Shown here in pieces: positions 2,362-9,195 of a DNA stretch of 64,000 nucleotides; the first letter of the stretch is position 1, and every line of letters starts with the position of its first letter. The translations under genes and the position numbers were made by a program. The notes beneath the pieces were generated by a model that did not search any database, was not told where the DNA came from, and saw only the letters and a program-made list of their open reading frames with translations. The stretch is from Polyangiaceae bacterium (GTDB taxonomy: Bacteria > Myxococcota_A > Polyangia > Polyangiales > Polyangiaceae). The stretch is taken from positions 1-64,000 of the forward strand of contig JAKLKA010000003.1 of assembly GCA_023150915.1 (NCBI GenBank), given 5' to 3'.

Positions 2362-3747
2362 GTGACCAGGAAGCGCTGGGCGATCATCGCGGCCGTGGCG
2401 TTCGCCCTGCTGCTCGCCGTCGTCGCTGTCTTCATGCAGTTCTTCGCCGAGCCGATGGCGCGGCGCATGGCCATTCAGCGCGCGGAAGAGCACGGCGTGG
2501 TGCTCGAACCGGGAGACATCTACCTGTCGCTCGGTTCGGTCAGCGTGCGCCGATCGCGCTTCCACCTGGTGGGGCTGCCGGCTGTGCGCGGTTCGCTGGA
2601 CGAGCTCCGGGTGTCGCTGCGCGGCACCCACCCCGTGGGGGTGAAGCTCCGGGGGGTCGAGGTCGAAGCGCTGGGCTCGGCGGCAACGCTGGCCTTGGGC
2701 GTGGCCGAGTGGAGTCGCCGCTTTCCGCAGACCTTTCGCCTGCCGACCGAGGTCGACGCCGCGACGCTGGTCTGGCGCAAAGCCGACCAGGCCGAGCCCT
2801 GGCTCACGCTCTCGGGGGGCACGGTCCGGCGCGGCGGCTCGACCACCCACTTCAGTGCCGAGAAGAGCGTGCTCGGCCTTTGCCGCGAGCGCGATGAAGG
2901 CGCGGCGCTGTGTCCGGACCTGGGCCAGGTCGGCGCGGCGTGGACCGCCGACGACGCCCAGGTGGCCATCGGCTTCGGCGTCGACGATCTCGCCCGCGCG
3001 CCGGTTCGGCTCGAGGTGCGACACTCGCTCGCCGAGCCGACGGCCACCATCACGCTATCGCCGGTCGATCTCGCGCGCCTGGCCGGACCGTTCGGCAGCA
3101 AGCTGCCGGTCAAAGGCGTGACCGCCAGCGCGACCGTTCAGCTCGTCTTGCCGAAAGGCAGCGGGGCAGTCACCGGGACCCTCGATGCTTCGCTCAAAGG
3201 CTACGTTCCACCCCACCCGCGCGAGCTCGACGGCTTGGTGTTCGGAGACACGACCACGCTGAGCGCGAAGCTACGGGTGGACGAGGGGCGAGAACGGGCA
3301 GAGCTTTCGGAGGTCAAGGTGGGCGCGGGGGCCTTCAAGCTCGCCGGCACGGGCAGCGTCTTCCGGGAAGCGGACCACGGCGCGCTGCGGCTCGACCTGA
3401 GCGGCAGCTTGCCCTGCTCGGCCTTGGCCGGCGCGGCCGCGGAGAGTCACCTGGGCCGCGCGCTCGGGGGCATCGCCGGGCAGCTGGCCCGCGATCTGAT
3501 CAAGGGCAGCGTGGCCATCACGGTGGCGATCACGGCTCGCTCCGACGAGCTCGACAGCGCCAAGATCGACAAGAAGATCGGCGTCGGCTGCGGGCTTCGC
3601 CCCATCGAGATTGGCGGCGTGGACGTGACCAAGATCCTGGAAGGCAAGCTGCCCCCGATGCCCAGCGGGCTGCCGGCACTGCCCAAGATCGACCTCGAGA
3701 TCGAGCCGCCGAAGCCCAAGCCCAAGGGCACGGGAGAGAAGCAGTAG
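2362..3747 (+). CDS. AsmA/GspN-like membrane-anchored protein
   Basis: The product has 461 residues, with one N-terminal transmembrane segment (about 7-26) and then a long beta-rich region of short amphipathic strands, as in AsmA/DUF748 and the GspN-like proteins of myxobacterial type II secretion loci. The C-terminus is a Lys/Pro tail. Such proteins sit in the inner membrane facing the periplasm; lipid transport or secretion assembly has been proposed for relatives. No catalytic motif is visible. The GTG start is the first start codon after greB's divergent start. The stop TAG shares its G with the GTG start of the next gene, so the two are probably translationally coupled. Confidence 0.6.
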   Translation: MTRKRWAIIAAVAFALLLAVVAVFMQFFAEPMARRMAIQRAEEHGVVLEPGDIYLSLGSVSVRRSRFHLVGLPAVRGSLDELRVSLRGTHPVGVKLRGVEVEALGSAATLALGVAEWSRRFPQTFRLPTEVDAATLVWRKADQAEPWLTLSGGTVRRGGSTTHFSAEKSVLGLCRERDEGAALCPDLGQVGAAWTADDAQVAIGFGVDDLARAPVRLEVRHSLAEPTATITLSPVDLARLAGPFGSKLPVKGVTASATVQLVLPKGSGAVTGTLDASLKGYVPPHPRELDGLVFGDTTTLSAKLRVDEGRERAELSEVKVGAGAFKLAGTGSVFREADHGALRLDLSGSLPCSALAGAAAESHLGRALGGIAGQLARDLIKGSVAITVAITARSDELDSAKIDKKIGVGCGLRPIEIGGVDVTKILEGKLPPMPSGLPALPKIDLEIEPPKPKPKGTGEKQ

Positions 3748-4319
3748 TGCGCCTCGGGTTCGCCCCGGTCTTGGCGGCCCTGGCGGCATGCACGCACGAG
3801 CCGCCCCCGATGACGGCGCGTCCCGAGCTCGCTCGCCCCGGACCCGCGCGCCGCTCTGCCGTGACGCCCGCCGCCAAAGCTCGAGCACCGGACCTCTCGC
3901 ACCGCGAGTGCGGGGAGCTCGCGCTGGAGCGCCGCGCGCTGACAGCAGCCGGCAAGGGCGAACGACACCCCGAGGTGCTCGCTGTCGAACGTGGGCTCTC
4001 CGCGTGCAGCGACCCGCGTCCGAGCGCATCGGCGTGCCGCCGGGTGCTGAGCGAGAACGCAAGTCATGCGGAGCGTGGCTACGGCCCGCGGCATCCCGCT
4101 AGGCAGACGACGGATGCCAAGCTCGAGTTGTGCCGGGAAGTGTACGGCCCCGTTGGCGCGCCAACGCCCGATCCCGCCGACTGCGAGTCCTTGCGGTCCG
4201 AGCGGGCGCGCTTGATCGCGGGGGGAAAGGGTCCGCGTCACCCGGCCATCCTCGCCGTGGACGCAGAGCTCGAACCGTGCAACGCGCCACCATCATCGAA
4301 GGAAACCCCGTCGCAGTGA
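3747..4319 (+). CDS. Lipoprotein with three 33-residue Cys-flanked GxGxRHP repeats
   Basis: I placed the start at the GTG (3747) that overlaps the previous TAG. It gives a short signal peptide with lipobox LAAC (Cys15) and a 190-residue product. After a Pro/Arg-rich spacer come three repeats, residues 55-87, 97-129 and 146-178. Each is exactly 33 residues from Cys to Cys and shares Glu at position 7, G-x-G-x-R-H-P at 15-21 and Leu at 30. The spacing suggests a small helical hairpin closed by a disulfide or metal site. I do not recognise a named family and assign no function. It lies between an AsmA-like gene and a WD40-like lipoprotein, so an envelope role is likely. Confidence 0.75.
   Translation: MRLGFAPVLAALAACTHEPPPMTARPELARPGPARRSAVTPAAKARAPDLSHRECGELALERRALTAAGKGERHPEVLAVERGLSACSDPRPSASACRRVLSENASHAERGYGPRHPARQTTDAKLELCREVYGPVGAPTPDPADCESLRSERARLIAGGKGPRHPAILAVDAELEPCNAPPSSKETPSQ
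3909..4280 (+). repeat. Three internal protein repeats (33 codons each)
   Basis: Repeat units at 3909-4007, 4035-4133 and 4182-4280 encode the C-x32-C modules of the lipoprotein. Conservation is at the protein level (E7, G15, G17, R19, H20, P21, L30, both end cysteines). The nucleotide sequences have diverged, so the duplication is old. Confidence 0.8.
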
Positions 4320-4366: not shown

Positions 4367-6745
4367 ATGCCGCGCTGGCTCGCGTTTTCGTTGCTCGCCT
4401 TCGGCGTCGCCTGCGGCGCCCATCCGCCCGGAGCCCCGGCTGAGCCGCGCCCTCGCCCGAGGGCGGTCGGCGCGCCCGCGCCACCGGAGCCGACCACGCG
4501 CGAAACGCCGCTCCCAACGGCGTGCGAGCGGGCCACGGACAAGCTCAGGCGGGCGGCGGCGCGCCGGGCCGAGGGCTTCTCGCGACGCGCGCAGCGGCTC
4601 TCGGACGACGCGCTTCGGCTCTGCCCCGAGCGCAGCGCGCTGACTCTGCCGGCACCCGCCGACGGCGGTGGCGTCAGCGCCGACGACGCCTGGGCGGCAG
4701 CGCGGGCGGCGCTCGCACAAGGCGACCTCCCCAGGGCACGACGCTTGGCTTCGCTCGCAGCCATCCGCTTCGAGGAGCGCGGCGTGCGCGTGACGCCCTG
4801 GGCGGACATGGCCAGCGTCGCTGCCGTGGCTCTTTCGCGCGACGGCGCGCTCTTGCTGGGCGCCACCGAGGCCGGCGAACGCTTGATCGTGGATGCTCGG
4901 CAGCTCGCGCCGCGAGTGTTCCTCGACAAGGCCAGCGCAGCGCGGCGTCACCACACCGAAGGCGCGCAGTTCTCTCCGGATGGGCGCGCTGTTGCCGTGA
5001 TGGAGCAGAACGCGGTCGTGCTCTACGACACGGCCACGGGCGCACGCGGGAAGAAACTCGAGTGGGCGGACCAAGAGCTCCGGGTGTTCGGCTTCAGCCC
5101 GGACGGGACGGCCATCTTCGCCGGCTCTCGCGCGGGGTTCGACGCCGTCGTCCGACGCTTCGACGTGGCGACCGGCGACTCGACGGCCGAGCACGTCGTG
5201 GCCAAAGGGCGTGACGTCACGGCGCTGGCAGTTTCTCCCGACGGCAACCTGGTGGCAGTCGCCACCAGTGGCGAGGCGCTGGCTCTCTTCGAGACCAAGA
5301 AGCTGACCCGGGCAAAGTCCCTCGGCGCGCCTCCACGCGCAGACGCCGCGACGCTGGCTGCCTTCTCCCCGAACGGCGACCGCCTGGCCGTTGCCGGACC
5401 GACGACTCTGGAGGTGTGGAGCGTGGCGAAAGGGACCTCGCTTGCCCGGGCCACCCTCGATCGACCGTGGCGCCGCAACGTCCTGGCGTTCTCGCAAGAC
5501 GGCAAGCGGGTCCGCACCAGCGGTGGAACCTGGGGTGAAACCCTGGTGGACTACGACCCGGCGTCCGGCCAGGCGCTGTCGTCCAAGAAGGTGCCCGGCG
5601 GCGATCTGGTGCTGTCGCCAGACGCAGCCGTGGTGGCCATCAGCACGCGTTCGGGGGGCCTGGCCATCGCCGACGCTGCCACCGGAGCCGTTTCCGCCCA
5701 GGTCACCCGCGGTTCGACTCGGCTCGAGGGCCTCGCGCTCGCGGACGGTCAGCTCGCGATCGCGCGAAAGGTCAGCGAGCCGCCCAACGATCACGTCGAG
5801 GTCTTCGTGGTGGGGACTCGCTCGAGTGAAGCGCACTTCCTCTCGGCGCCGGGCTACAGGGCAACGCTCGCCTTTTCTCGCTTGGGGCAGCGCCTGGCCG
5901 GCAGCCTCGGCGGCAAGAGCATGGTCGCCTGGGAGGTGGCCACGGGCCACCGCCTGGAGCTGCCCGAGGCACCAGAGTGGGTGGACGAGCTCCAGTTCTC
6001 GGATCCCGAGCACCTCTGGGGTCTGGGCGGGCCGTTCGAGAGAAAGCTCTTCACGCATGACGTGGGCAGCCCGATCTGGACGACCGCACTGTCGTTTCCC
6101 CGCGCGAAGAGCGGGCGGGTGTTCGCACTGTCCGAGACTCGAGCGGTGACGTCATCGGACGACGCGCTCGCGGTCTTCGACTTCGCCACCCGGGCCACAC
6201 GCACCCTGACTCGGCCGAAAGACCTGCGCGCGCTGGGCTTGTCGCGCGACGGAAGCGTGCTCGTACAGGTCTCTGCCAGCGGAGCAGAGCGCGTCTTGCT
6301 CCGCGCAGGCAGCCCCAGCAAGCTCTTGTCGGGCCGCTGCAGCCGGGGCCCGGTCAGCGTGTCGATGGACGGCAGCACGATACTGATGGGCTGCACGTAC
6401 AGCGACATCGCGGTGTTTTCTGCGGCGGGCGCAACGACCCGAAGCGTCAGCGCGGATCGCCTCGAGGTCTCGCCCGACGGTCGCGTGGTGGTCCTGGAAG
6501 ACGACGGCCAGGTCACGATCGCCGGGCAAGACCTCACCCCTCGCGTCACCTTGAGTGCTTCCGCGCGACCCGGGGGCGTGCTGGCCCGCTCGGCCACGGG
6601 CAAGCTCGAGATCTTCGGCTCGCCCACCGCCCACGAGCGGTTGTTCTGTCGCGCCGGCAGCCGCGCCTACCCCTTCGAGCTGTGCGAAGATCTGATGATC
6701 GAAGACGACCTCGTGCGCGACGCGCTGAGCGGCGCCCCTCACTGA
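4367..6745 (+). CDS. WD40/YVTN-like beta-propeller lipoprotein
   Basis: The product has 792 residues, starting at the ATG that gives a signal peptide with lipobox GVAC (Cys16). An upstream extension in the same frame has no signal character and was left out. After a Pro-rich spacer and a helical region with several cysteines, the rest contains many ~40-residue beta-blades. The markers 'FSPDGRAVAV', 'FSPDGTAIFA' and 'VSPDGNLVAV' are typical of WD40 or YVTN propellers. Such domains are protein-interaction platforms; no catalytic site is seen. It follows the triple-repeat lipoprotein by 47 bases and is probably in the same operon. An outer-membrane scaffold or sensor role is inference. Confidence 0.75.
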   Translation: MPRWLAFSLLAFGVACGAHPPGAPAEPRPRPRAVGAPAPPEPTTRETPLPTACERATDKLRRAAARRAEGFSRRAQRLSDDALRLCPERSALTLPAPADGGGVSADDAWAAARAALAQGDLPRARRLASLAAIRFEERGVRVTPWADMASVAAVALSRDGALLLGATEAGERLIVDARQLAPRVFLDKASAARRHHTEGAQFSPDGRAVAVMEQNAVVLYDTATGARGKKLEWADQELRVFGFSPDGTAIFAGSRAGFDAVVRRFDVATGDSTAEHVVAKGRDVTALAVSPDGNLVAVATSGEALALFETKKLTRAKSLGAPPRADAATLAAFSPNGDRLAVAGPTTLEVWSVAKGTSLARATLDRPWRRNVLAFSQDGKRVRTSGGTWGETLVDYDPASGQALSSKKVPGGDLVLSPDAAVVAISTRSGGLAIADAATGAVSAQVTRGSTRLEGLALADGQLAIARKVSEPPNDHVEVFVVGTRSSEAHFLSAPGYRATLAFSRLGQRLAGSLGGKSMVAWEVATGHRLELPEAPEWVDELQFSDPEHLWGLGGPFERKLFTHDVGSPIWTTALSFPRAKSGRVFALSETRAVTSSDDALAVFDFATRATRTLTRPKDLRALGLSRDGSVLVQVSASGAERVLLRAGSPSKLLSGRCSRGPVSVSMDGSTILMGCTYSDIAVFSAAGATTRSVSADRLEVSPDGRVVVLEDDGQVTIAGQDLTPRVTLSASARPGGVLARSATGKLEIFGSPTAHERLFCRAGSRAYPFELCEDLMIEDDLVRDALSGAPH

Positions 6746-6807: not shown

Positions 6808-9195
6808 ATGCGCTCGCTCCGGTTCCTTGCGCTCGCGGTGCTGCTGAGTGCGGGCCATGCCCACGCACAGCCGGCGCCCAGCACGCCGCCCCAGGCCGCC
6901 GCTCCGACGCTGATCGCACCGAAGGTGCTCTCGGACACGACCGTGCTCTACCCCGATCACGCCCGCGGGGATGCGACGGTGGTGCTCACTTTGGTGGTCG
7001 ATCGGACCGGCCGGGTGACGTCCGCCGTGCCGAGCGAGGTGAACGAGCCGTTCAGCAGCCTGGCCACGAACCGCGCGCTGGGCTGGCGGTTCGAGCCGGC
7101 CACGCGCAACGGGGTGCCGGTCGTCGCGAAGATCCGCGTCGAGGTGGTGTTCCACGAGCCCGAGCCCCCACCCGAGGCCGCCGCCGCGACGCCCGAGCCC
7201 CCGGCGCCAGCCCGGCCAGGCGCTACGAAAGAAGAGCGCGTCGAGGTGGTGGTGCTGGGTGAGCACCCCGAGCCGTCGCGCACCGCGACGCTGTCTCGCG
7301 CCGAGGTACGCCAGATCCCCGGAACGTTCGGCGATCCGTTTCGCGCCATCGAGGCGCTGCCGGGGGTCACGCCCATCGTCTCGGGCTTGCCGTTCTTCTT
7401 CATCCGCGGCGCGCCGCCGGGCAACGTGGGCTACTTCTTGGACGGCATTCGCGTGCCGCTCTTGTTCCACGTGGGCATTGGCCCGTCGGTCGTACACCCG
7501 GTGCTGATCGAGCGGGTCGACCTGTATCCGGGCGGGTACCCGGCGCGTTTCGGCCGGTTCGCCGGCGGCATCGTCGCGGGCGAGACCACCTTGCCGAATC
7601 CCGAGTTGCACGGCGAGTACAACCTGCGACTGTTCGACGCCGGCGCAGCGGTGGAGGCGCCGTTTGCCGCGGGGCGCGGCACCGCGCTGGTGGGCGGTCG
7701 CTACTCGTACACCGCCATGCTCTTGTCGCTGCTCTCGCCCGAGGTGCTGCTCGAGTACTGGGACTACCAGGCGCGTGCAACTTACGACCTGACGCCGGAA
7801 GATCGTCTGGGCGTCTTCGCGTTCGGCTCGTACGACTACCTGGGGCAGAAGACCCAGGGCGAGCCCCTCACCCTGTTCGCGACCGAGTTCCACCGAGTCG
7901 ATCTGCGCTACGACCGCCACCTGCCCCGCGGCAAGATGCGCAGCGCTCTGACCCTGGGCATCGATCGCTCGCTGGTGCAGCAAGATCGGTCGGTGGTGAG
8001 CCGGCTGTACGGCGGCCGCACCGAGGTCGAGCACCGTGTCGACCACGCAGTCCGAGTGCGGGCGGGAACCGACTTTGCGCTCGAGACCTACGGGATCGAG
8101 CTCGGATCACAGGTGCTGTCACCGTCGGCCCGGCGCGCCGCCGAGAACTTCCCCTCGCGCACCGATCTGACCTTCGGCATGCGCGGCGACGCGGTGATCA
8201 CGCCAGCCCCTGGCTTCGACGTCACACCCGGCCTGCGCATCGACCTCTACGCCTCGGAAGGCGTGAGCGCGGTCGGCATCGACCCGCGCCTGGCGACCCG
8301 CACCCAGCTGAGCGAGCGTCTGCATTTGTTGACGGCCTTCGGCATTGCACACCAGCCGCCCGCATTCGTGGTCCCCGTGCCGGGCTTCCAGCCGGGTGGC
8401 CTGCGGGGCGGCCTGCAGCGCGCGGTGCAAGAAAGCATGGGTGTCGAGCTGGATCTGGGCGACGCCACGACCCTCACCGCCACCGTCTTCCAGAACGCTT
8501 TCTTCGACATGAGCGATCCCCTGGGCACCACCGAGCCAGAGCTCGACGGCTGCCCGCCCGGGTCGTACCCCGACGACTCGATCGGCGGCGACTACGGCGC
8601 GACGCCCGACACCCCCCCCGACTGTGCCAACCGCTTCGAGCCGGGCACGCTCGGGCCCGACCGCAGCGGCGGCGGCGGCCAGGGCGCCGACAGCCGCGGG
8701 GGCCGGCGTTTTGCAGAGGTGTTCGAGGTGCGCACGCTCGGGGCATCTTACGGGCTCGAGCTGTTCCTGAAGCGCAGGCTCACGAAGAAGCTCGGGGGCT
8801 TCGTCTCGTACACGCTCTCTCGCTCGACCCGCAGCTTCGGCCGGCGAACGTACGTGGCCACCTTCGATCGCACCCACGTGGCCAACGCGGCCGTGGCCTA
8901 CGACCTGGGCCGGCGCTGGCGCGCAGGCTCGCGCGTGGTGTTCTACACCGGGCTGCCCAAGCCGCCGGACCCGTTCGACGGCTCCACGCGGCTGCCGCCG
9001 TTCTTTCGTCTCGACCTGCGGCTCGAGAAACGCTGGCAGCTCACGCCGACGGTCTGGATCAGCGCCGTGGCCGAGGCGATGAACGCAACCCTGAGCAAAG
9101 AAGCGGTGCAGAGCGAGTGCACGCTGGAAGGCTGCGCGGCGGAAGAGATCGGACCCGTGACCATTCCCAGTCTTGGGGTAGAAGGAGGCTTCTGA
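6808..9195 (+). CDS. TonB-dependent outer-membrane receptor with N-terminal TonB-C-like domain
   Basis: The product has 795 residues. A Sec signal peptide (about 1-20, ending AHA) is followed by a TonB C-terminal-like domain (about 33-118: 'VVLTLVVDRTGRV' and 'GWRFEPAT'), a Pro-rich spacer, a plug domain (about 150-260, containing 'FFIRGAPPGNVGYFLDG') and a long beta-barrel ending in Phe, as expected for BAM recognition. Receptors of this class import ligands using proton-motive force passed by TonB. Carrying a TonB-C domain on the receptor itself is unusual outside Myxococcota and Bacteroidota-like systems. The substrate is unknown. The stop overlaps the next gene's ATG (TGATG). Confidence 0.85.
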   Translation: MRSLRFLALAVLLSAGHAHAQPAPSTPPQAAAPTLIAPKVLSDTTVLYPDHARGDATVVLTLVVDRTGRVTSAVPSEVNEPFSSLATNRALGWRFEPATRNGVPVVAKIRVEVVFHEPEPPPEAAAATPEPPAPARPGATKEERVEVVVLGEHPEPSRTATLSRAEVRQIPGTFGDPFRAIEALPGVTPIVSGLPFFFIRGAPPGNVGYFLDGIRVPLLFHVGIGPSVVHPVLIERVDLYPGGYPARFGRFAGGIVAGETTLPNPELHGEYNLRLFDAGAAVEAPFAAGRGTALVGGRYSYTAMLLSLLSPEVLLEYWDYQARATYDLTPEDRLGVFAFGSYDYLGQKTQGEPLTLFATEFHRVDLRYDRHLPRGKMRSALTLGIDRSLVQQDRSVVSRLYGGRTEVEHRVDHAVRVRAGTDFALETYGIELGSQVLSPSARRAAENFPSRTDLTFGMRGDAVITPAPGFDVTPGLRIDLYASEGVSAVGIDPRLATRTQLSERLHLLTAFGIAHQPPAFVVPVPGFQPGGLRGGLQRAVQESMGVELDLGDATTLTATVFQNAFFDMSDPLGTTEPELDGCPPGSYPDDSIGGDYGATPDTPPDCANRFEPGTLGPDRSGGGGQGADSRGGRRFAEVFEVRTLGASYGLELFLKRRLTKKLGGFVSYTLSRSTRSFGRRTYVATFDRTHVANAAVAYDLGRRWRAGSRVVFYTGLPKPPDPFDGSTRLPPFFRLDLRLEKRWQLTPTVWISAVAEAMNATLSKEAVQSECTLEGCAAEEIGPVTIPSLGVEGGF

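Follow-up and report, generated by a model that had tools for sequence, protein, structure and literature searches.

A lipoprotein-like protein of Polyangiaceae with three Cys-paired modules predicted to be helical hairpins, and their likeness to the arm turn of polysaccharide co-polymerases

What might a bacterium do with a 190-residue protein in which a short segment, bounded by two Cys and belonging to no named family, is repeated three times behind a putative lipid anchor? This question is raised by a gene at 3747..4319 on the forward strand of a 64,000-nucleotide stretch of Polyangiaceae DNA (hereafter the window), which starts with GTG and has homologues in nine other genomes. A first-pass annotation had seen in it three modules built around a GxGxRHP motif, had argued for a real small fold closed by a disulfide or a metal and had left its function open.

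The gene and its modules

The ORF is very likely a real gene because its start codon shares one base with the stop codon of the upstream gene (TAGTG) and GC at the three codon positions, which is 0.89/0.71/0.51 in the same frame ahead of the start, becomes 0.75/0.63/0.80 within it. It is present in one copy in its genome. Its product begins, as read by eye, with a short putative signal sequence of 14 residues and a lipobox (ALAAC) of which Cys15 is the last residue (3747..3791, forward strand). A Cys near the N-terminus after small residues is likewise visible in the nine relatives, so that lipobox-like starts extend across the ten-genome family.

Re-reading of the ORF bore out the three Cys-to-Cys modules, each of which is C-x13-GxGxRHP-x11-C and 33 residues long. 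On the forward strand, module 1 (residues 55–87; 3909..4007) carries a GKGERHP loop, module 2 (residues 97–129; 4035..4133) a GYGPRHP loop and module 3 (residues 146–178; 4182..4280) a GKGPRHP loop, with linkers of 9 and 16 residues between them. None of 200,000 residue shuffles of the protein held even one such module. The seven Cys of the protein are C15 and the six module Cys, with no other.

The pattern does not correspond to a catalogued family. Searched against Pfam at E ≤ 10, the protein matched no named family (sole scores 12.4 and 8.6 bits), NCBIfam returned only a weak match to the FxSxx_TPR equivalog (E 0.042, 12.3 bits vs a cut-off of 300) and a PDB sequence search gave nothing at E ≤ 10. 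Across all ten family members Pfam found no convincing family, the best match being DUF2664 in one member (E 0.0034). A PDB search with the module profile produced AlbB (E 0.02) and two phosphonate-enzyme sequences (E 1.2), which we judged to be chance. A literature search found no published account of such a module, which does not by itself prove that none exists. Judged by sequence, the module is thus an unnamed small domain lying outside Pfam, NCBIfam and the PDB, in agreement with the first-pass annotation.

Distribution and conservation

BLAST, module-profile searches and reading of single loci identified at least ten carriers in the window's order (183 genomes), with one to three modules per protein. 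Nine are in one family (G000, G026, G111, G119, G131, G143, G159, G160 and G175) and one, G043, comes from another family of the same order. A scan of genome contigs with the single protein gave 73 pattern matches and no relatives. BLAST on 59 relatives matched five genomes, of which the own genome, G043 and G026 were real; the matches at L005 and L006 were antisense or chance. Run on the 183 order genomes, an eight-module profile hit 70 at E ≤ 0.01, its matches comprising short Cys-paired lipoprotein-like ORFs together with mostly long ORFs, and a second search ran an 18-module profile on 108 genomes of the window's family. Loci L084 to L091 added a new member from L084 only, and L027 was discarded as a ferrochelatase-like frame (by eye). 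Of the first-look candidates, only a fraction was scored in these profile searches (in the own genome, for example, 73 out of 164), and weak members may be missed. In a phylum sample of 377 genomes that omits some known carriers, every Cys module listed at E ≤ 0.001 came from the window's order.

Between them the ten carriers encode 23 modules, of which 20 are distinct. Fourteen of the distinct modules are 33 residues long and six are 32, so that the exact length of 33 residues first reported holds for all three window modules but not for the whole family. Only C1, G17, H20, P21 and C33 are invariant over the 20, a count based on 18 aligned modules and two G143 modules that were read, all being exact translations. 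Of the residues originally proposed as invariant, the GxGxRHP Gly at module position 17, the His-Pro and the Cys pair stand, whereas the Glu, Arg and Leu vary among the modules of relatives. The loop types keep the order GKG, YG/WG, GKG in G000, G026 and G159/G160, whose proteins have three modules; G159 and G160 differ by three codons in this gene. Two family proteins have a different layout: in L010:1330-2277 (forward strand) two modules precede an unrelated region of about 190 residues without a Pfam match, and in L028:3-701 (reverse strand) such a region of about 200 residues precedes one module.

Predicted fold

An AlphaFold model of the window protein, built on a 10-sequence alignment (mean pLDDT 80.9; 86–97 over the module blocks and 52–60 over the N-terminal tether), contains six helices that form three like helix-turn-helix hairpins, with predicted helices at residues 55–67 and 75–85, 94–109 and 117–133, and 143–158 and 166–179. 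In each of them the turn has 7 residues, helix 2 begins with the Pro and 12 residues separate the first Cys from the end of helix 1, as well as the start of helix 2 from the second Cys. The packing of successive hairpins is modelled with a pTM of 0.53 and a low-confidence second linker. The segments are thus predicted to fold alike, which favours the real, thrice repeated small fold that had been suggested; the two outcomes that would have told against it, an existing Pfam match and unlike folding of the three segments, were looked for and neither occurred.

With one Cys per helix and C-x31-C spacing, the modelled Cys are mirror-placed on neighbouring helices and appear well suited to an intramodule disulfide, a bond that we infer. 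The same invariant Cys pair and the one invariant His per module could in principle bind a metal or haem. However, the modelled His sits in the turn and both Cys 12 helical residues away (about 18 Å by helix geometry), at the opposite end of the hairpin, and the modules contain no CxxC or CxxCH motif, so that a metal site is highly improbable. Of the two closures first envisaged, it is the disulfide that the modelled Cys placement fits.

How ordinary is this hairpin? Foldseek found no match to the window model in the PDB with an E below 3.5, and a second structure comparison returned designed, SMYD and kinesin-light-chain-type (TPR-type) hairpins with Z ≤ 5.1, suggesting that by structure alone the predicted hairpin is generic. 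Like the modules, TPR hairpins of the kinesin-light-chain/SMYD type (TPR_10) are antiparallel helix pairs (Z 3–5, mostly single hairpins), and they have an LG-x-x-HP loop motif. However, at E ≤ 10 Pfam recognises no TPR in the window protein, which, because its linkers are of 9 and 16 residues, also lacks a fixed TPR-like period of 34 or 42 residues. CHCH/twin CX9C proteins and alpha-hairpinin peptides are disulfide-held helical hairpins. They have two Cys per helix, whereas the modules have one per helix, at the outer ends and with 31 residues between. The module can be described as a known kind of hairpin in a stapled, as yet unnamed form.

Genomic context

The upstream gene (2362..3747, forward strand) encodes 461 residues and is kept in relatives without the module gene; it had been called AsmA/GspN-like, a label that we do not retain since no Pfam family matches the gene product at E ≤ 0.01. 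The downstream gene (4367..6745, forward strand) encodes a WD40 β-propeller lipoprotein-like protein, the WD40 likeness noted earlier being confirmed by Pfam. In two same-genus genomes a homologue of the upstream gene (87% and 69% identity) is directly followed by the WD40 gene. Since the flanking genes are 620 nt apart in the window vs an estimated 82 nt or so in G002, just the module gene is absent from the site in these relatives. It is a clean example of an accessory element, one gene long, within a gene row that is otherwise conserved. Further downstream, the protein encoded at 6808-9195 has a TonB-dependent receptor plug and, N-terminal to it, a TonB C-terminal domain (TonB_C) whose score of 23.6 is just below the Pfam cut-off of 24.6.

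A blastp comparison of ORFs from eight carrier neighbourhoods and the first 16 kb of the window revealed no shared partner gene, and the idea of a conserved neighbour was rejected. The only matches were between the near-identical loci of G159 and G160, among the module proteins, between two kinases (L061/L066, 31%) and, over a short stretch, between L063 and L064; the mechanical ORF picker used had missed the module gene in several regions. An integrase/transposase-like frame (by eye) lies near the G159 module gene at L064:2609-3433 (forward strand), in one of two near-identical loci.

This context bears on two alternatives. In the first, the staple would open and close in the periplasm as a redox switch, melting or forming a docking surface. 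An isolated short hairpin with one Cys pair would suit such a switch, but no redox partner gene was recognised near the module gene in the window or the carrier neighbourhoods, and we consider it improbable. In the second, the stapled hairpins would be a protease-resistant stalk or add-on without a specific partner, making the tether of variable lipoproteins longer or stiffer. The accessory nature of the gene, the presence of one to three copies, in two proteins (L010 and L028) beside unrelated extra regions, and the confinement of conservation to positions that would be required for a turn and a staple all agree with a spacer. A mere spacer, however, need not keep the order of loop types that the three-module proteins keep, and we see it as a possible, if somewhat unlikely, explanation.

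Likeness to polysaccharide co-polymerases

A likeness absent from the first-pass annotation is that of the module to the helical-arm turn of polysaccharide co-polymerases. After the Cys modules themselves, the best matches of the module profile in the same genomes are PCP-2a co-polymerase/BY-kinases (PF02706 and PF13807; E. coli Wzc): BLAST identified 57 of 59 non-Cys loci considered as Wzz/GNVR-type kinases (several fetched twice, with Pfam confirmation on one), and the other two, L037 and L046, gave no kinase match. The best E reached 1e-7 per genome, and the segment matched is a helical-arm segment with a GKGxxHP or YGxxHP turn. As in the modules, a helix is followed by a 7-residue G-x-x-H-P turn and by a second helix that the Pro opens, and GKG-type and YG-type turns differ in length by one residue. 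A model of the own-genome co-polymerase (mean pLDDT 81.8) has a helix at 292–313, a 7-residue turn with G317, H320 and P321, and a helix at 321–413; it superposes on solved Wzc and Wza-Wzc chains with Z of about 28–34, the rmsd reaching 16 Å because the arm moves. The arm differs from the modules in having no Cys pair and in being present once, as the tip of an extended coiled coil that belongs to a kinase of roughly 750 residues. The module lipoprotein lacks the other co-polymerase domains: neither the window protein nor the nine other members have a Wzz/GNVR match in Pfam, although a kinase control matches both, and no Walker-type tyrosine kinase domain was matched in any of them.

How far can this likeness be trusted? 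Stripped of its Cys columns, the module profile scored co-polymerases at a median of 24.1 bits vs 1.1 bits or less for nine own-genome TPR_10 loci frames, but these co-polymerases had themselves been picked with the module profile. In a set chosen independently of it (37 GNVR matches, of which 30 were fetched), the median was only 12 bits, with 26 of 30 reported. The turn was G..HP in 20 of these 30 co-polymerases, D..HP in two and neither in eight. Among the G..HP turns, the GKG form, which is also that of window modules 1 and 3, was found in 4/4 co-polymerases of the window's family vs 0/16 of the others. In the own genome, common ancestry or a common structural need with the co-polymerase turn seems better supported than the TPR alternative.

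In E. coli, a study of the Wza-Wzc complex describes a contact between Wza D99/E102/Y155 and Wzc K332, Y334, T335 and H338, in which H338 touches E102; a quadruple interface mutant including H338E made no colanic acid, while changing Y334 or T335 made little difference or none (PMC12881504). Work on K30 Wzc reports that the arm (motif 3) is essential (PMC8285477). In MAFFT alignments run in three modes, on which the link of the turn to Wzc H338-P339 rests, these residues align with His in 45 and Pro in 46 of 46 co-polymerases, a near-perfect agreement (also for the Gly) that is partly circular because the set came from module-profile matches, the own-genome co-polymerase alone being found independently as well. 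The module profile did not match E. coli Wzc, and a PDB profile search with the co-polymerases broke off at H338-P339 without aligning the turn.

These data invite the idea that the modules are decoys or adaptors that mimic the tip of the co-polymerase arm, bind the D1 domain of the Wza-like OPX exporter and compete with or stabilise the co-polymerase–exporter junction. The position of H338 in the Wza-Wzc contact, its alignment with the turn, the GKG loop common to modules 1 and 3 and the family's co-polymerases, and the presence of an OPX gene (PF02563) in all ten carriers, the only genomes counted, are in its favour. However, the carriers' own co-polymerase turns have HP in six cases, YP in three (G119, G159 and G160) and NP in one (G043), whereas every module keeps HP, also in these four genomes, so that the modules do not follow the turn that they are supposed to mimic. 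No polysaccharide export gene was seen beside the module gene in the window or the carrier neighbourhoods, and a G-x-x-H-P turn may be a plain structural cap, with similar turns in TPR hairpins. This idea is accordingly unlikely. In G043 and G175, two additional weak GNVR matches have no such turn. In the co-polymerases at L134, L135 and L136, from three carriers, GKGxNYP replaces GKGxxHP in the exporter-facing turn.

Proposed role and outlook

The reading that we favour, and to which we give an even chance, is that the protein is a string of lipid-tethered, disulfide-stapled hairpin beads and most likely a multivalent protein-docking element of the envelope. Each module would be an antiparallel two-helix hairpin with G-x-x-H-P in its 7-residue turn and a Cys1-Cys33 disulfide closing the open end. 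The three beads would sit on a Pro/Ala-rich tether that, because of the lipobox, is probably lipid-anchored and periplasm-facing. Elsewhere such a hairpin forms the tip of a long coiled coil; the staple may allow it to stand alone, and the beads would together dock a periplasmic partner. Since in sequence the module is closest to co-polymerase arm turns, the polysaccharide export machine, through its co-polymerase or its OPX exporter, is a tentative first candidate for the partner; docking at the exporter is a guess, weakly held and drawn from sequence. That lipid-anchored, stapled copies of co-polymerase tips dock OPX exporters, and so form a previously unrecognised class of regulators or adaptors of polysaccharide export, is doubtful.

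Whatever its partner, the module is an apparently autonomous helical hairpin of 32–33 residues made by stapling, a domain that can be defined, searched for and modelled. If the exporter is not the partner, the module still offers design work a compact natural scaffold; if it is, the module would act as a natural probe or regulator at the point where the two halves of the export channel join.
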